From Polyangiaceae bacterium (lineage in GTDB: Bacteria > Myxococcota_A > Polyangia > Polyangiales > Polyangiaceae), in assembly GCA_025353725.1 (NCBI GenBank), contig JANXOF010000081.1, forward strand, positions 1 to 64,000: 64,000 nt of DNA, given 5' to 3'. A program made the position numbers and the translations under genes. The number at the start of each line of letters is the position of its first letter. Position 1 is the first letter of the stretch. This document shows, in pieces, positions 55,457 to 63,716 of this stretch. The notes below the pieces were generated by a model. The model was not told the origin of the DNA, searched no databases, and saw only the letters and a list, made by a program, of their open reading frames with translations.

Positions 55457-56497
55457 TCAAATCCACTCGTCATTGAACGCCGGCAGCGCTTGGTGGGGGG
55501 GTACACTTTTCGACCGTGACGCGGCCTTGTCGGCCGCCATGGCGCGCTCGGCAATGAGAACGGCGGCGAGCGCGTCACCTCCCGTCGCGAGCTCGCCCGC
55601 GTCGCCATCAGAGAGGAACCGACGAAATTGAACCGCCTGGGCCCGAAGCGGTTCCACTTTGAGCACGCCGAACTGAATTCGGTCCGTCGTGCGGTAAAGT
55701 TCCTGCAAACCCTCAAAACTTGTGTCAACCGGCTCATTCGCCTTGAGCAAGCTGCCACCGAACAGCTCGCACGTCTGGAGCATGTAGTCGACGAAGCAGA
55801 CCCCACGCGTGCCGGTGACGCGCGCGCTCCGTATCTTTGTGGGCGTAACCCAATTGACGTGGACAGTGGCGCTCGCGCCGGTCGCAGCCACGAGGAAGAT
55901 TTCCGCCGTGTCGAAGACTCCGTCACGCCACGTCACGTGACACGTGGAATGTTCGAGCTTCACGGGTCCGACCATGCTGCGGAGAATATCGATATCGTGA
56001 ACGGCAAGGTCGAGGAGTACGTTGTTTCCCGCAAGCACCGTATTGGGATAACCGCCGACGCGCGTAAAAGCGAAGTGAATGACCGTACCGAGAAACCCCT
56101 CACGGATAATCTCTCGTAACTTGAGCACGGCGGGGTTGAATCGCTCGACGTGACCCACCGCGAGCCGCGTGCCCTTCGCGTGCGCGGCCGCAAGAAGCTC
56201 GCGCCCCTGTACGAAAGTGCTGGCGATCGGCTTCTCGATCAAAAGGTGCTTGCCCATGGCGATGAGTTCGAGTGCAAGCTTGTGGTGCGTGCTGGTGGGC
56301 GTCGCGATGACAGCAGCCTCGAAGTCTGTGTCTGCGAGTTCGGAAACGCTCCTGAAAAGCGGTACGCCCAAATCTGGTTTGACCGCTTGGGCATCGACGA
56401 CGGCGACAAGGTCGAAGCCAGGCGTCTCCTTGAGCACACGAAAGTGGTTGGAGCCCATCCGACCCAACCCAATGAGCACTACCTTGATCTTGGTCAT
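55457..56497 (-). CDS. Gfo/Idh/MocA dehydrogenase, WlbA/WbpB-like
   Basis: 346 residues. NAD-binding GLGRMGSNHFRVL, EKPIAST, and GHVERFNPAVLKLREII. The last is shared with WlbA/WbpB, which oxidise C3 of UDP-N-acetylglucosaminuronic acid. With the downstream-coded aminotransferase (12 bases apart, transcribed first) and the WbpD-like acetyltransferase, it completes a route to UDP-2,3-diacetamido-2,3-dideoxyglucuronate. The WbpA-type UDP-GlcNAc 6-dehydrogenase and WbpI-type epimerase are not in the window. Confidence 0.85.
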   Translation of the reverse strand: MTKIKVVLIGLGRMGSNHFRVLKETPGFDLVAVVDAQAVKPDLGVPLFRSVSELADTDFEAAVIATPTSTHHKLALELIAMGKHLLIEKPIASTFVQGRELLAAAHAKGTRLAVGHVERFNPAVLKLREIIREGFLGTVIHFAFTRVGGYPNTVLAGNNVLLDLAVHDIDILRSMVGPVKLEHSTCHVTWRDGVFDTAEIFLVAATGASATVHVNWVTPTKIRSARVTGTRGVCFVDYMLQTCELFGGSLLKANEPVDTSFEGLQELYRTTDRIQFGVLKVEPLRAQAVQFRRFLSDGDAGELATGGDALAAVLIAERAMAADKAASRSKSVPPHQALPAFNDEWI

Positions 56498-56509: not shown

Positions 56510-57652
56510 TCAGGCTGTGGCCACAATGGAAGAAAGCGCCGCGACGGCAGCCTCGCGCTCGTCGACGCGCATGTCGAAAAAGAGCGGCAAGTTCACGACC
56601 TTCTCACAGAAAGCCCTGGATCGAAGAAGTGCGCCATGACTGACAGCGCCCGCAGCCCGCGCTGGCGGCTGCGCATCCATAGTCTCGGGGTAAGTACGTG
56701 CCGCGCCGATGCCTGCCGCCTTTAGAGCGTCGACAACTTCCTGCCCGCGCTTGCCCTCGACCGTGAGGACGTTCAGGTACCCGTTCTCGGTGACGCCCGA
56801 CGGCGGACCGTAAACGCGGACCTTCTTGCTCAGTGCAACATCTCCCGAAAGTCGCTCGCGGTACCATGCGGCGGAAGCCCTACGTGACTCGAGGATGGCC
56901 GGGACCTCGTCAAGCACTCGCGAGATAAACGCGGCCTGCAAACCGCCCATACGCGAGTTCCAACCCACGTGAGCATAGGAGTAGTGATCGGAGCGGCCGT
57001 GGTTGCAGAGCGAGCGTAGAAAGACCTCGTGCTCCTTCGTTTGCACCGTCACGGCGCCGCCGTCCATTGCGCCGCCGACCACTTTCGCAGGGTAGAACGA
57101 GAGGGTCGCGACGCCAGCATCGGCGAGCAACGGTTTGCCATTCACCTCGACGCCAAAGCACTGAGCGCCATCTTCAACGATCGCGATCTCCCGTTCTTTG
57201 CAGAATGCACGAATATCGCCGAGCCGCGACGACGTCCAGCCGTACAGGTGAACGAGCATAAGCGCTTCGAAACGATGCGCTTCGTGCGCGGACTTCAGCT
57301 CGTCGAAACTTACCTGCAAGTCGTCAGGGTCAATGTCAACCAGCACCGGAATAGCCCCGAGCTGGGCCACCGCTTCAAACGTCGACCAAAAGGTAAGGTT
57401 GGGGAGCGCCACCTTCATGCCTCGCTTGACGCCTTGAGCCTGTAGGGCGACCAGAAGCGCGTCGGTACCGTTCGCGCAGGATACGACGAAAGGTACGCCG
57501 AGCCCGCTGGCGAGCTTTTTTTCCACGGCGCCAACTCGCGGACCACCGACGAATTCGCACTTGTCAAGGCATTCAGTCCACGCCGAGAGGACGTCTGCTC
57601 GGATGCGCTTCACAAGTCTCGTTAGGTCGATAAACGGTACTGGACCAGACAT
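56510..57652 (-). CDS. DegT/DnrJ/EryC1 aminotransferase, WbpE-like
   Basis: PLP-dependent sugar aminotransferase of 380 residues. PLP lysine is Lys190 in LSFYPAKVVGG; IVEDGAQCFG supplies the phosphate-ring contacts, and NHGRSDHYSYAHVGWNSRMGGLQAAF is the family's substrate loop. It is expected to aminate the 3-oxo sugar made by the next gene. The ATG (57652) has GGGAG 6 bases upstream, and an extended -10 promoter is at 57679-57692. First gene of a two-gene operon. Confidence 0.9.
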   Translation of the reverse strand: MSGPVPFIDLTRLVKRIRADVLSAWTECLDKCEFVGGPRVGAVEKKLASGLGVPFVVSCANGTDALLVALQAQGVKRGMKVALPNLTFWSTFEAVAQLGAIPVLVDIDPDDLQVSFDELKSAHEAHRFEALMLVHLYGWTSSRLGDIRAFCKEREIAIVEDGAQCFGVEVNGKPLLADAGVATLSFYPAKVVGGAMDGGAVTVQTKEHEVFLRSLCNHGRSDHYSYAHVGWNSRMGGLQAAFISRVLDEVPAILESRRASAAWYRERLSGDVALSKKVRVYGPPSGVTENGYLNVLTVEGKRGQEVVDALKAAGIGAARTYPETMDAQPPARAAGAVSHGALLRSRAFCEKVVNLPLFFDMRVDEREAAVAALSSIVATA

Positions 57653-57678
57653 AAGTTACTCCCGTCGTACAGGCGAGA

Positions 57679-57692
57679 GCGGGATTATACCA
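57679..57692 (-). promoter_or_regulatory. Extended -10 promoter of the aminotransferase operon
   Basis: On the minus strand the sequence reads TGGTATAATCCCGC: a perfect TATAAT (57689-57684) with the extended TGn. No good -35 is seen at 16-18 bases. The predicted start is about 25 bases before the ATG, a normal leader. The same TGnTATAATCCCGC occurs upstream of rfbB. Confidence 0.65.
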
Positions 57693-57836
57693 GCGTTTGA
57701 AGGCGCGATAAATCGGCAAGCTCCTCTGGAGTTCATAAACCGATCTCTTCGTCGTCCACTTTGAGCTGGGCCGAACTCGTTCAACGAAGGTCTGCGCTCG
57801 GTGAAGGGCCTCAAAATCATCCGCGTGCATCGTCGA

Positions 57837-59435
57837 CTATCGCTGAAATACGCGCGCGAACACGCCCGGAGTCACGAGCTCGAGCCAGAGCAGCATCCGC
57901 GCCTCGACGGGCATCGACACGCGCCGTTGCCCATGCTGCTCAGCTCTAAAGGTCCGCCTTGCGACTTGTGCGGACGTCAACACCCTCCCCTGCGGAGCTC
58001 GTGACGCTCCTTCCTCGCCGTCGACGTTCTCGTCACGGATGCGCAACCCCTTCTTCGCGAGGTCAGAGGTAAAGGTTGCCGGCAACACCTCCATCACTTC
58101 GACCTGACTGCCGCAGACGCGCCGCAGCGAACGAGTAAATGACCAAAGAGCTCCCTTACTCGCACTGTAAGCGCCAAGATCACGCCGCCCCGCGATCGCG
58201 GTCGTCGACAGAATGTTGACTACTTTTTTAAGCGAGCCGCCACGGGAAAGACATTCCGCGGTAAGAATGACCGGACTGAAAAAGTTGACAGCGAACGTGC
58301 GTTGAAAGACCTCTTTACTGGTGTCTTTGATGCGACCTGTGACATGCGTTCCTGCATTGTTGATGAGCAGCTCGACGTCAGGAAGCTGCTTCGCGAACTG
58401 CGCGACAGCCTCCAGATCAGACAGGTCGACTGGGCACACTCGGACGCGGCAAGGGCTTCGTGATTCTATCTCGCGCTTCAAGCCGTCGAGTGCCGCGGAC
58501 GAACGCGCCGTTAAAATAAGTTCCTCTGTAACATCGGCATAGAGAAGCGCCAGTTCGCGTCCTAGACCACTCGATGCGCCAGTAATCAAACCGCAGCGAT
58601 AGCGGGTCGCAGACTTTCCTCGAAACGGGACACGCGCGGCGAGGTCGAGGATCCATGGTGCTCCGCGTTCCAAAACGTGAACCGCTCTGTAATACTGCGG
58701 TAGGTATCGTCGCCCGTAGGAGCGCTGCCGTGTCGTCGCCTTGAGGCGCTGAGTGATAGCATTGGCGACCCGTCCGGGAGCCAAACCGCGAGACGAAAGG
58801 AACTCATGCGAGGTTGCATTGACCAAGTTCGTCGGAATGACAACCTCAAGGCTCGAGCCCTGGCCCGAAAGTTCAGCCCCAATAGCGCCGCAAAGATTCT
58901 CGAGTGCCCACTTCGAGGGCGCGTAAGAATCCAAGGTCCCAGGCGCATGATGGCCGGAAGTGGACGAAAGAACCACGATTCGGCACGGAGCCACCTGATG
59001 GGTCGCGAGCCACGCCTTGATTGGCACTAAAACACCGAACACGTTACGATCAAAGTAGGCCTTGAACGATGAAAACGAAGTGAAGGGCGTGGCCTGCGAG
59101 AACCCTCCGACAGTGACGACGAATGCATCAATAGGTTCACTCCAGAGCGTATTTATCCGAATAATTTCTGCACTCATCGCATCAATGTCTGTCGCGTCCA
59201 CTGCTGCGAAAGTTGCTCCGAGTTTAACGAGCGACAAGATCTGAGCTGAGGGCTGACGGTCGACGAGGTGCAGTCGTTCGGTCTTCACAAGCCGCTCTGC
59301 GAGAGCGAACCCGACGTTGCCAATTCCTACGATAACAATATTTGAACGAACCCCGACCGCACGCGCGGTCATCGAAAAGCGGTTCACTAACTTTGTCCGT
59401 AGGACTTCCAAATCTACCGAGGATGTCGACAGCAT
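57837..59435 (-). CDS. Double short-chain dehydrogenase/reductase fusion
   Basis: About 532 residues from ATG 59435; GTG 59462 and ATG 59372 are alternatives. Two SDR modules in tandem. The first (about 35-260) has NIVIVGIGNVGFALAERL, a GxGxxG more like classical NAD domains than SDR, but VVLSSTSG and YAPSK indicate an SDR active site (Ser, Tyr, Lys). The second (about 285-500) is canonical: ITGASSGLGRELALLYA, INNAGTHVTG, YSASKGALW. Two different or successive reductions on one sugar or acyl substrate are possible. It is 184 bases upstream of the aminotransferase gene, but a separate promoter lies between. Confidence 0.8.
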   Translation of the reverse strand: MLSTSSVDLEVLRTKLVNRFSMTARAVGVRSNIVIVGIGNVGFALAERLVKTERLHLVDRQPSAQILSLVKLGATFAAVDATDIDAMSAEIIRINTLWSEPIDAFVVTVGGFSQATPFTSFSSFKAYFDRNVFGVLVPIKAWLATHQVAPCRIVVLSSTSGHHAPGTLDSYAPSKWALENLCGAIGAELSGQGSSLEVVIPTNLVNATSHEFLSSRGLAPGRVANAITQRLKATTRQRSYGRRYLPQYYRAVHVLERGAPWILDLAARVPFRGKSATRYRCGLITGASSGLGRELALLYADVTEELILTARSSAALDGLKREIESRSPCRVRVCPVDLSDLEAVAQFAKQLPDVELLINNAGTHVTGRIKDTSKEVFQRTFAVNFFSPVILTAECLSRGGSLKKVVNILSTTAIAGRRDLGAYSASKGALWSFTRSLRRVCGSQVEVMEVLPATFTSDLAKKGLRIRDENVDGEEGASRAPQGRVLTSAQVARRTFRAEQHGQRRVSMPVEARMLLWLELVTPGVFARVFQR

Positions 59436-59472
59436 AGGCGAACGGACGCTACACCAGAGCACGGCGTTCGCA

Positions 59473-59532
59473 TAACCTAGGCTTTTTCGTCGGCGTCGAG
59501 GCTACTCACCCTCGCTCCGATGTTCTAGGTTA
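59473..59532. promoter_or_regulatory. Inverted repeat spanning a divergent promoter region
   Basis: TAACCTAG (59473-59480) and CTAGGTTA (59525-59532) are perfect 8-bp inverted copies, 44 bases apart. They lie between the double-SDR gene and the LpxD-like gene. The right copy also supplies the AGG before the LpxD-like ATG. It could be a paired operator controlling both directions. Confidence 0.35.
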
Positions 59533-59538
59533 CGACCC

Positions 59539-60426
59539 ATGCGCAACCTCCTGCAAAAGCCCGTCAGGGCTTCCGTAATAGCGGCCGAACTTGGCCTAGC
59601 GTTCGAGGGTGACGATGTAGAAGTTGCGACCGTCGCTCCCATTTCGGCGCCGAGGGCTCACGCCCTCTCTTTCGCGACACACCCCATTCCGGACGAACTT
59701 CCTGCGAACGTCTGCGTTATTGCGCCAGGCCCCCTCGCTTTAGGGACTCGCACCGCGTGCCTTCGTTCTCTCCGCCCACGGCTCGACTTCGTGAAGGCGC
59801 TTCTCATCCTTGATCGCCTCGGTACTTTTGAGCGCTGGACTCGACCACCCGAAATTCACCCCAGCGCCGTAGTTGGGCCAAACGTCTCCTTTGGCAACGG
59901 AGTCGTTGTTGGAGCCGGCACGCGCATCGGTGCAAACGTGACTATCGCGAGCAACACACGCATCGGAAATGACTGCTGGCTGAAAGCGAACTGCGTGATC
60001 GGCGAGGCGGGATTCGGATTCGAGCGTGATACCGACGGAAAACCTCTGCGCATGTTGCACTTCGGCGGCGTCATTCTTGAGGACCGAGTTGAGGTCGGAT
60101 CCTCTACCACCGTCTGCCAAGGCACACTCGCGCCGACAGTGATTGAGCAAGATTCAAAAATTGACGACCACGTCCATGTCGCACATAATGTGCATATCAA
60201 AAAAAACGCATTGGTCACGGCTTGCGCTGAGCTAAGCGGCGGCGTAGTGATCGGCGAAGCCGCGTGGGTTGGCCCGAATGCGTCAGTGCTTGAAAAAGTG
60301 CACGTTGGTGACCGCGCGTTTATCGGAATTGGCGCGGTTGTCCTCCGCGACGTCGCGCCCGACACCACGGTTGTAGGAAATCCCGCGCGAGTTCTCGAGC
60401 GCAAGCGGCTCGCGGGAGGTGCGTGA
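59539..60426 (+). CDS. LpxD-like hexapeptide acyltransferase
   Basis: 295 residues. A diverged N-terminal domain (about 1-100, uridine-binding-like) precedes hexapeptide repeats beginning IHPSAVVGPNVSFGNG. GEAGFGFERDTDGKP, HFGGVILEDRVEVGSSTTV and VHVAHNVHI (the catalytic His of LpxD) follow. LpxD N-acylates UDP-3-acyl-glucosamine in lipid A synthesis; here it lies in a sugar cluster without lpxA, lpxB or fabZ, so a glycan-modifying paralog is likely. Its stop overlaps the start of the next gene by 1 base (TGATG). Confidence 0.82.
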   Translation: MRNLLQKPVRASVIAAELGLAFEGDDVEVATVAPISAPRAHALSFATHPIPDELPANVCVIAPGPLALGTRTACLRSLRPRLDFVKALLILDRLGTFERWTRPPEIHPSAVVGPNVSFGNGVVVGAGTRIGANVTIASNTRIGNDCWLKANCVIGEAGFGFERDTDGKPLRMLHFGGVILEDRVEVGSSTTVCQGTLAPTVIEQDSKIDDHVHVAHNVHIKKNALVTACAELSGGVVIGEAAWVGPNASVLEKVHVGDRAFIGIGAVVLRDVAPDTTVVGNPARVLERKRLAGGA

Positions 60427-61223
60427 TGCCGCTCACCGAAAACGTACCCAACGAACAAGGCGCGTGGGCCGAGAATTGGACGTTTGGATATCTTGAGGTG
60501 CTTTACGCCGCCTTACTTGCGCGGTTCCGCCCGGCGTTGCTCGGCGACGCCGGCGATGCTCTCCGCGATGAATCGGTGAAGACTGTCTTTGTGCGCCACG
60601 ATATCGATGTCGACCTCGTGCGCGCAGCCGAATTTTCTCGAAGGGAAGTAACGTGGGGCGTTCGATCCACGTATCACGTGATGATTGACAGTCCGTTTTA
60701 CGATCTTCGCTCTGCCCAGTCTTCGGCGAGTGTGGACAGCATACGAGCGTTGGGGCACGAAGTAGGTCTGCACTACGATGTTGTCGCGCGAAAAATGCTG
60801 AGCGCGGATGGGCCAACCCGCGAGCAGGACATTGCAGATGCATGCGACACGCTCGAACAAATTCTAGGTGAATCCGTACGATCTGTTTCCTTTCACTTGC
60901 CTGTAGCCGAGCTCATGCGAGGTCCGCTCCGCATCGCAGGACGGGTAAGCGGATACGCAGAAGATTTGTTTCGCTGGTACTTGTCGGACTCGCGAGGTCG
61001 CTGGCGGGAGGGTGAGCCTATCGCAAGTCTCGACCGACCGCGCGGACGTGTACTTCAAATTCTGATGCACCCGGTGTGGTGGGGTGAAAGGGACGAACAA
61101 CCCGACGTTCGGCTTCGTGCTCTCCTTCTTGACTTGGCAGTCGAAACGCAAACGTCCTTCGAGGCGCTACGCGACCGTATGTCGGATCATATTCTTTATC
61201 GCGCGGCAGATCCCTCGCCCTAA
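60426..61223 (+). CDS. NodB-like polysaccharide deacetylase family protein
   Basis: 265 residues from ATG 60426, which overlaps the preceding stop (the GTG at 60423 is less likely). VFVRHDIDVDLVRAAEFSR, VRSTYHVMIDSPFYDLRS and LGHEVGLHYD match the divergent NodB-homology group often found in sugar clusters, with His-Asp metal ligands. VLQILMHPVWWG near the end gives the late His. It probably removes an acyl or acetyl group from a sugar. Coupling with the LpxD-like gene suggests successive acylation and deacylation of one substrate (inference). Confidence 0.75.
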   Translation: MPLTENVPNEQGAWAENWTFGYLEVLYAALLARFRPALLGDAGDALRDESVKTVFVRHDIDVDLVRAAEFSRREVTWGVRSTYHVMIDSPFYDLRSAQSSASVDSIRALGHEVGLHYDVVARKMLSADGPTREQDIADACDTLEQILGESVRSVSFHLPVAELMRGPLRIAGRVSGYAEDLFRWYLSDSRGRWREGEPIASLDRPRGRVLQILMHPVWWGERDEQPDVRLRALLLDLAVETQTSFEALRDRMSDHILYRAADPSP

Positions 61224-61788
61224 GCTACCGATTGATTCCATGCCACAGCGATTCAGGCCGCTTGCCGGGCGGTCGACGTTCGCGACGGTAGTAAACCGAT
61301 GACGAGAAGCTCGGCTCGACGACGATGAAATGGCCTCTTGAACTGGAGTACGCGCATTTCAGGAGCGCCGTCCGCCTAGCTGGGAACACCGTGGTGGTCG
61401 CCGCGTGAAGAACTGGCGATGTAGCCCCTAATCTCAATACAATCCTACAAAGCAAGGAAAAAGTCACTGACCCTAACCACCCGCGTCTTCGATGATACGC
61501 CGGACCTAACGGTAGTGAGCCGTGACCGCACGAAGCGTTCAGGCGTGTGCTATAATCCCGCATGGTAGTGAGAGTGCAAGGTCCTCATTAACTCCGGCTC
61601 GTACAGTTCGTTCCCGGCACGACTCTGAGTCTGGTGGATGGTCGAATAATGAACCAACTATCGTATAACGTCTGCAACGATACCATTGAGTCTCTGGGTT
61701 CCGTGTTCCCAGGCAGAATCGAAAGTGCGACTACCGGCGTGGTGAAGCTAGTGCGCAACACGCGAACCTCAAGTCGCCGGGGGACCGA
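61224..61788. other. AT-richer region with possible gene remnants and rfbB leader
   Basis: 565 bases without a confident gene. A frame at 61239-61301 (MPQRFRPLAGRSTFATVVNR) and one ending at 61408 (MKWPLELEYAHFRSAVRLAG) have coding-like third positions but are separated by a frame change, so they may be remains of a decayed gene. The second half holds the promoter at 61548-61561 and the small ORF at 61649-61792. The minus-strand ORF 61225-61563 is taken as chance. Confidence 0.45.
61548..61561 (+). promoter_or_regulatory. Extended -10 promoter of the rfbBA operon
   Basis: TGCTATAATCCCGC contains a perfect TATAAT (61551-61556) and extended TGn, identical at 13 of 14 positions to the element before the aminotransferase gene at 57679-57692. 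No strong -35 at normal spacing. Transcription would start near 61563, giving a leader of about 225 bases before rfbB. Confidence 0.65.
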
Positions 61789-61792
61789 GTGA
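61649..61792 (+). CDS. Possible 47-codon leader ORF overlapping the rfbB start
   Basis: MNQLSYNVCNDTIESLGSVF and onward, 47 codons, too short for the ORF track in this frame. The stop TGA overlaps the rfbB GTG (GTGA), the same junction seen between coupled genes elsewhere in the window. About two thirds of its codons end in G or C, similar to the beginning of rfbB. It lies downstream of the extended -10 promoter. No good ribosome site and no recognised family, so it may be a regulatory leader peptide or chance. Confidence 0.3.
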   Translation: MNQLSYNVCNDTIESLGSVFPGRIESATTGVVKLVRNTRTSSRRGTE

Positions 61793-62847
61793 AAGTCCTC
61801 GTCACCGGCGGAGCAGGATTCATTGGCTCCAGGGTCGTGCGCACTCTCCTTGCTCAGTCTCATACTGTCGTCAACGTCGACAAGCTAACCTATGCGGCAG
61901 ATCTTTCATCTCTCGAGGATGTCGCAGGGCACGCGGCCTATCGTTTCGAGAGGGTCGACATTTGCAACGCCGAGGCGCTAGCTGAAGTTTTCGCGCAGTA
62001 CACGCCCGACGCCGTCATCCATCTCGCTGCCGAGTCGCACGTGGATCGGTCGATTGATGGCCCCGCCGCATTCGTCCAAACCAACCTTGTGGGTACGTAT
62101 ACGCTACTTCAAGCGGCCCGCACCCACTGGACGAGCCTTCCGTCCAATCAGCGCGACCTTTTCCGCTTCGTCAACGTTTCGACGGACGAAGTCTTTGGCT
62201 CTCTGCCTCCCGACGGATGGTTCACGCCTCAGAGCGCATATGACCCCAATTCACCGTACTCCGCTACGAAAGCTGGGGCAGACCACCTTGTCCGGGCGTG
62301 GCACGCCACGTTTAATCTGCCGACACTAACCACGAACTGTTCAAACAACTTCGGCCCGTTTCAGTTCCCAGAAAAGCTTATACCCGTGGTCATCTTAAAC
62401 GCGCTCGAAGGGAATCCGTTGCCCGTTTACGGAGCCGGGGAGAATATTCGAGACTGGCTTTACGTGGACGATCACGCGGAAGCCCTTCTTGCCACACTCA
62501 AGCGCGGTGTACCGGGCGAAACTTATCTCGTAGGTGCACGCAATCCGCGACGAAATATCGATGTCGTGCGAGCGCTGTGCGCGATTGTAGATGAGCTCGC
62601 GCCAAGTCAAGCCATCGGGAAGCGCGAAACGCTCATTCACTTCGTGTCCGACCGACCGGGCCACGACTTTCGCTATGCTATCGACGCGACGGCTACCGAG
62701 AAAGCTCTCGGTTGGCGTCCGAAGCATCCCTTCGAGGTCGCGCTCCGTGCGACGGTAGCCTGGTACCTCGAGAATCAATCCTGGTGCAAACGAATCGCTG
62801 GCCGAAGTGGCCGGGAACGAATGGGCTTGGGGGCGCCGCGCTCGTGA
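61789..62847 (+). CDS. rfbB: dTDP-glucose 4,6-dehydratase
   Basis: Makes dTDP-4-keto-6-deoxyglucose, the precursor of rhamnose and related deoxysugars. 352 residues, GTG start. NAD-binding [25 protein letters not shown], the catalytic STDEVFG and [29 protein letters not shown], and [12 protein letters not shown] are all present. Length is standard. Its stop overlaps the rfbA GTG (GTGA). rfbC and rfbD are not seen before the window ends. Confidence 0.96.
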
Positions 62848-63716
62848 AGGGGATCATCCTGGCCGGCGGCGCGGGTACTCGCCTCTACCCCGCGACGCGG
62901 ATCGTGAGCAAGCAGCTTCTGCCTGTCTATGACAAGCCGATGATCTACTATCCGCTTTCGACCCTAATGCTGGCTGGTATCCGGGAGATTCTCCTTATTT
63001 CCACGCCACAAGACCTCCCGCGATTCCAACAGTTGCTCGGCGATTGCCAGCAGTGGGGGCTTTCGATGACCTATGCCGAACAGGCGGTGCCTGATGGCTT
63101 GGCGAATGCCTTCGTCATCGGGCGGGACTTCGTCGGTAACGACTCCGTAGCGCTCATTTTAGGGGACAACATTTTTTATGGCGCAGGGTTGCATACAGCA
63201 CTAGCTGATGCGGCACGGCAGACGCATGGCGCTACAATATTTGGCTATTCCGTAAGTGACCCTGAGCGTTACGGCATCGTCGAACTTGATAAGAAAAATA
63301 ACGCATTATCTCTTGAGGAGAAGCCACAAAAACCGCGCTCCCACCAGGCCGTGGTCGGACTTTACTTTTACGACAATCAAGTTCTCGATTTCGCGACATC
63401 GCTCAAGCCTTCAGCGCGTGGCGAGTACGAGATTACAGACCTGAACCGAATTTATCTCGAGCGTAAAGCACTACGCGTAATTCGACTAGGGCGCGGAACA
63501 GCGTGGTTCGACACCGGCACTCACAAGTCACTACTCGACGCCTCGAGCTTCGTCGAGGTCATCGAGAGCCGACAAAATCAGAAGATCTCTTGCCCCGAAG
63601 AGATTGCTTGGCGCATGGGTTTCATCAACGATGGCGAACTCGCAAACCTCGCGGAGCCGCTGGCAAAGTCTTCGTATGGGCAGTACTTGTTGAAAATTCT
63701 TGAAGAAGGGCGCTAA
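62844..63716 (+). CDS. rfbA: Glucose-1-phosphate thymidylyltransferase
   Basis: Makes dTDP-glucose from dTTP and glucose-1-phosphate. 290 residues from the GTG at 62844 ([18 protein letters not shown]), overlapping the rfbB stop; the ORF track start at 62712 is inside rfbB. The nucleotidyl-transfer loop [47 protein letters not shown] and [14 protein letters not shown] are diagnostic. Length is normal. Confidence 0.96.

Follow-up and report, generated by a model that had tools for sequence, protein, structure and literature searches.

Matching extended -10 elements upstream of two sugar operons: a well-supported promoter, a plausible promoter and an unsupported regulatory link

The sequence TGnTATAAT is known as an extended -10 element, whose TG makes promoters stronger in C. 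glutamicum (PMC3917453). The two 14-mers described here, S1 and S2, resemble extended -10 sigma-70 promoters in that each has a TG and, one base further on, a consensus TATAAT, with no recognisable -35. They can also be compared with promoters that have a GC-rich discriminator, i.e., those of the rRNA/tRNA type and of ppGpp-repressed Salmonella genes. In Salmonella, ppGpp repression has been linked to such discriminators, in which C is favoured (PMC3293720); they have also been tied to open-complex stability (PMC10232725). S1 and S2 share with these promoters a run of five G/C bases immediately following the -10, which several tRNA promoters of this genome also have, but differ in that their CCCGC is found at sugar genes. 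The original prediction held that this common core promoter co-regulates surface-glycan genes. Our analysis separates the striking common motif into three parts: S1, a promoter with good support; S2, a plausible one; and a regulatory link that is unsupported.

The window, i.e., the whole stretch of DNA that was analysed, covers 64,000 nucleotides of a Polyangiaceae genome of 6,617,554 bases. The relevant features are the following.

57679-57692, minus strand: S1, with the extended -10 TGG-TATAAT (57684-57692) and the discriminator CCCGC (57679-57683); read from the sequence and from the TATA of orthologs.
57698-57701, minus strand: TTCA in the S1 spacer, starting 12 nt upstream of TATAAT; read from the sequence.
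57659-57663, minus strand: GGGAG, likely the ribosome binding site of the aminotransferase gene, judging by the sequence and its position 6 nt before the ATG.
56510-57652, minus strand: DegT/DnrJ/EryC1/StrS sugar aminotransferase, first gene of the S1 operon (PF01041, E 2.8e-65).
55457-56497, minus strand: Gfo/Idh/MocA dehydrogenase, second gene of the S1 operon (PF01408, E 1.7e-23).
61548-61561, plus strand: S2, with the extended -10 TGC-TATAAT (61548-61556) and the discriminator CCCGC (61557-61561); candidate promoter of the rfbB operon, from the motif only.
61538-61541, plus strand: TTCA in the S2 spacer, starting 13 nt upstream of TATAAT; read from the sequence.
61789-62847, plus strand: rfbB, dTDP-glucose 4,6-dehydratase (TIGR01181, above cut-off, 435.3 bits).
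62712-63716, plus strand: rfbA, glucose-1-phosphate thymidylyltransferase (TIGR01207, above cut-off, 469.6 bits).

The sequence bears out the positions and strands predicted for both 14-mers, which are identical at 13 of 14 bases. Perfect matches to TGnTATAATCCCGC are found only at S1 and S2 in the whole genome, and the window's only two TATAAT hexamers are those within these sites. The hexamer had been called rare in the window, but it is no rarer than composition predicts (2 observed vs 2.4 expected from dinucleotide shuffles). With TATAAT given as the core, none of 400 dinucleotide shuffles of the window contained a TATAAT pair with at least 7 of 8 flanking bases in common, and coincidence thus fails to account for the exact agreement of CCCGC at the two sites. 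This pattern was picked post hoc, once the pair had been seen. Without a privileged core, the number of exact inverted pairs of 11-mers at most 4 kb apart is at the chance level (244 in the real sequence vs 281 in one shuffle); the match between S1 and S2 is noteworthy only because it is centred on a promoter hexamer.

We consider it probable that S1 and S2 are ordinary extended -10 promoters of the sigma-70 family, and that the CCCGC they share is most likely due to coincidence or convergence. Both would be housekeeping core promoters of the TGnTATAAT type, recognised by RNA polymerase via the TG and a -10 close to consensus. S1 would drive the aminotransferase/dehydrogenase operon as the local version of a promoter found at the same place in congeners, where a -35-like TGGC is combined with a weaker TATA box, and S2 probably drives the rfbB/rfbA operon. 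Transcription from S1 or S2, and any effect of the discriminator, are what we infer. No TTGACA-like hexamer is found at 16-18 nt for either site. A TTCA had been predicted ahead of each -10, and it is indeed present at both, but it falls inside the spacer and is therefore not a -35 element. A consensus promoter scan listed neither S1 nor S2 because it demands a -35 hexamer. Genome-wide, TGNTATAAT is found 9 times vs 12 times for the reversed control; as there is no enrichment, the motif alone is weak evidence for a promoter.

The core-promoter reading is well supported at S1, where it draws on TATA and -35-like conservation among relatives. S1 ends 26 nt before the aminotransferase ATG, with the GGGAG in between, and within the genus the aminotransferase orthologs are 70-79% identical. 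In congeners L248, L249, L251, L253 and L254, the dehydrogenase gene lies directly 3' of the aminotransferase gene. Conservation was read upstream of the starts of eight same-genus aminotransferase orthologs, with 20,000 shuffles as control. A TATA is present at most 60 nt from the ATG in six of the eight, so that the promoter position is kept ahead of the gene, and five of the eight have a TGGC-N19-TATA/TATG arrangement, i.e., a -35-like element at a constant distance; none of the 20,000 shuffles attained either count. Ortholog L064 carries TATACTCCCGC upstream of its aminotransferase start. A TATA box was not seen by eye in five aminotransferase orthologs or homologs from other genera (L238-L242). 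We regard it as very probable that S1 is a genuine core promoter of the sigma-70 type for the DegT-aminotransferase/Gfo-dehydrogenase operon. The window's aminotransferase gene is without the TGGC -35-like element while its extended -10 matches the consensus, which suggests that an improved extended -10 compensates for the missing element; S1 might thus serve as an example of promoter compensation.

At S2 the same reading is only plausible, i.e., that the site is the extended -10 promoter of the rfbB operon. The predicted start lies about 226 nt upstream of rfbB within an intergenic region of 566 nt, for which the other 107 family genomes give no match. The rfbA open reading frame as called overlaps rfbB, and its family match begins at residue 46. 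The best congener homologs of rfbB are about 50% identical, vs 62-64% in distant bacteria, which indicates horizontal acquisition; rfbB was thus probably acquired horizontally. It is possible, though we doubt it, that S2 matches the motif by chance within a non-coding scar and that rfbB is transcribed from another start. The long leader, the absence of conservation of the S2 region in relatives and the lack of genome-wide enrichment of the motif would all fit such a chance match, but S2 is a consensus extended -10 that is intergenic and points toward rfbB.

Part of this intergenic region, a stretch of about 186 bases just upstream of S2 (about 61227-61412), shows 71% identity to DNA on contig C24 of this genome, and a DDE transposase fragment (PF13751) is found near the matching DNA on C24. 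The stretch is possibly a mobile-element scar. No RNA family was found between the two operons.

Compared with the reading of S1 and S2 as ordinary promoters, it is unlikely that a shared core promoter with a GC-rich discriminator co-regulates both glycan operons via ppGpp/DksA or supercoiling. In its favour, CCCGC is identical at the two sites and occurs nowhere else in the genome with the same -10, both operons are part of a surface-glycan cluster, and GC-rich discriminators are linked to ppGpp repression (PMC3293720) and to open-complex stability (PMC10232725). Such co-regulation, if real, would couple both glycan operons to growth physiology with no need for a regulator of their own. However, the element is common to both genes in none of seven congeners: in these, no sequence upstream of the rfbB-like gene corresponds to the aminotransferase -10 region (best match 8-9 of 14 bases, reached by a fraction of 0.44-0.93 of shuffled sequences). 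The 14-mer is also absent from 97 sampled family genomes. Across 318 class genomes it occurs at seven sites in six genomes, two of which are S1 and S2, and the other five copies are at unrelated places, four in coding sequence (on either strand) and one just before a kinase-like gene (gene names read by eye). Among rfbB relatives elsewhere, one related site was found, which lies within the gene on the opposite strand. These results from the family, the class and the congeners speak against a conserved glycan regulon, and co-regulation via the core promoter, as originally predicted, is not supported. With no shared code in related genomes, what is left would be ordinary promoter anatomy together with a striking local coincidence.

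The genome-wide search for genes downstream of the 14-mer likewise gave no regulon, as the two sites were the only perfect copies of TGNTATAATCCCGC; with at most 2 mismatches it has 26 sites vs 32 for the reversed control. A regulon based on the relaxed pattern TATAATN{0,4}CCCGC was also rejected, since its three sites are all on contig C51 and the third has as neighbours a serine/threonine kinase gene and a gene for a hypothetical protein rather than glycan genes. On the minus strand at C51:135657-135669, TATAATTTCCCGC overlaps a kinase-like gene at its end and immediately precedes the following gene; this site is possibly a third promoter of similar build.

The CCCGC was predicted to be a shared GC-rich discriminator, and it is present at both sites, but it is not special to glycan genes. 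By a simple score, 13 of the 30 tRNA genes of the genome have a sigma-70-like promoter (score at least 8 of 12), vs 2.25 expected. The five discriminator bases of these promoters average 74% GC, vs 59% in shuffled hits. The CCCGC therefore fits the strong promoters of this genome, and since GC-rich discriminators are frequent at tRNA promoters, they cannot set glycan genes apart. Any stringent or supercoiling control at S1 and S2 would thus not be specific to glycan genes. We regard a recent, species-specific link, in which the neighbouring glycan operons gained the same extended -10 and CCCGC and respond jointly to growth rate or supercoiling, as very unlikely.

That the 14-mers form a 14-bp inverted repeat, i.e., a recombination or mobile-element end that flips the segment or swaps upstream promoter parts, is scarcely credible: the opposite orientation, the arms (93% complementary, 3855 nt apart and flanking 3.86 kb), the gene order unlike that of congeners and the similarity of the bases upstream of S2 to C24 DNA near a transposase remnant would fit, but S1 falls at a promoter position that congeners conserve, a recombinase was not found among the genes examined between S1 and S2, and repeats of such size are at chance level.

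Between 55457 and 61223, the order of the aminotransferase, the acyltransferase and the next gene is unlike that in congeners, and L246 has all three consecutively on one strand. A 541-residue open reading frame (57837-59462, minus strand) apparently has two short-chain-dehydrogenase-like regions fused in one protein. The gene at 60423-61223 (plus strand) has no Pfam or NCBIfam match and is a conserved gene that adjoins the acyltransferase gene in L246 and L250.
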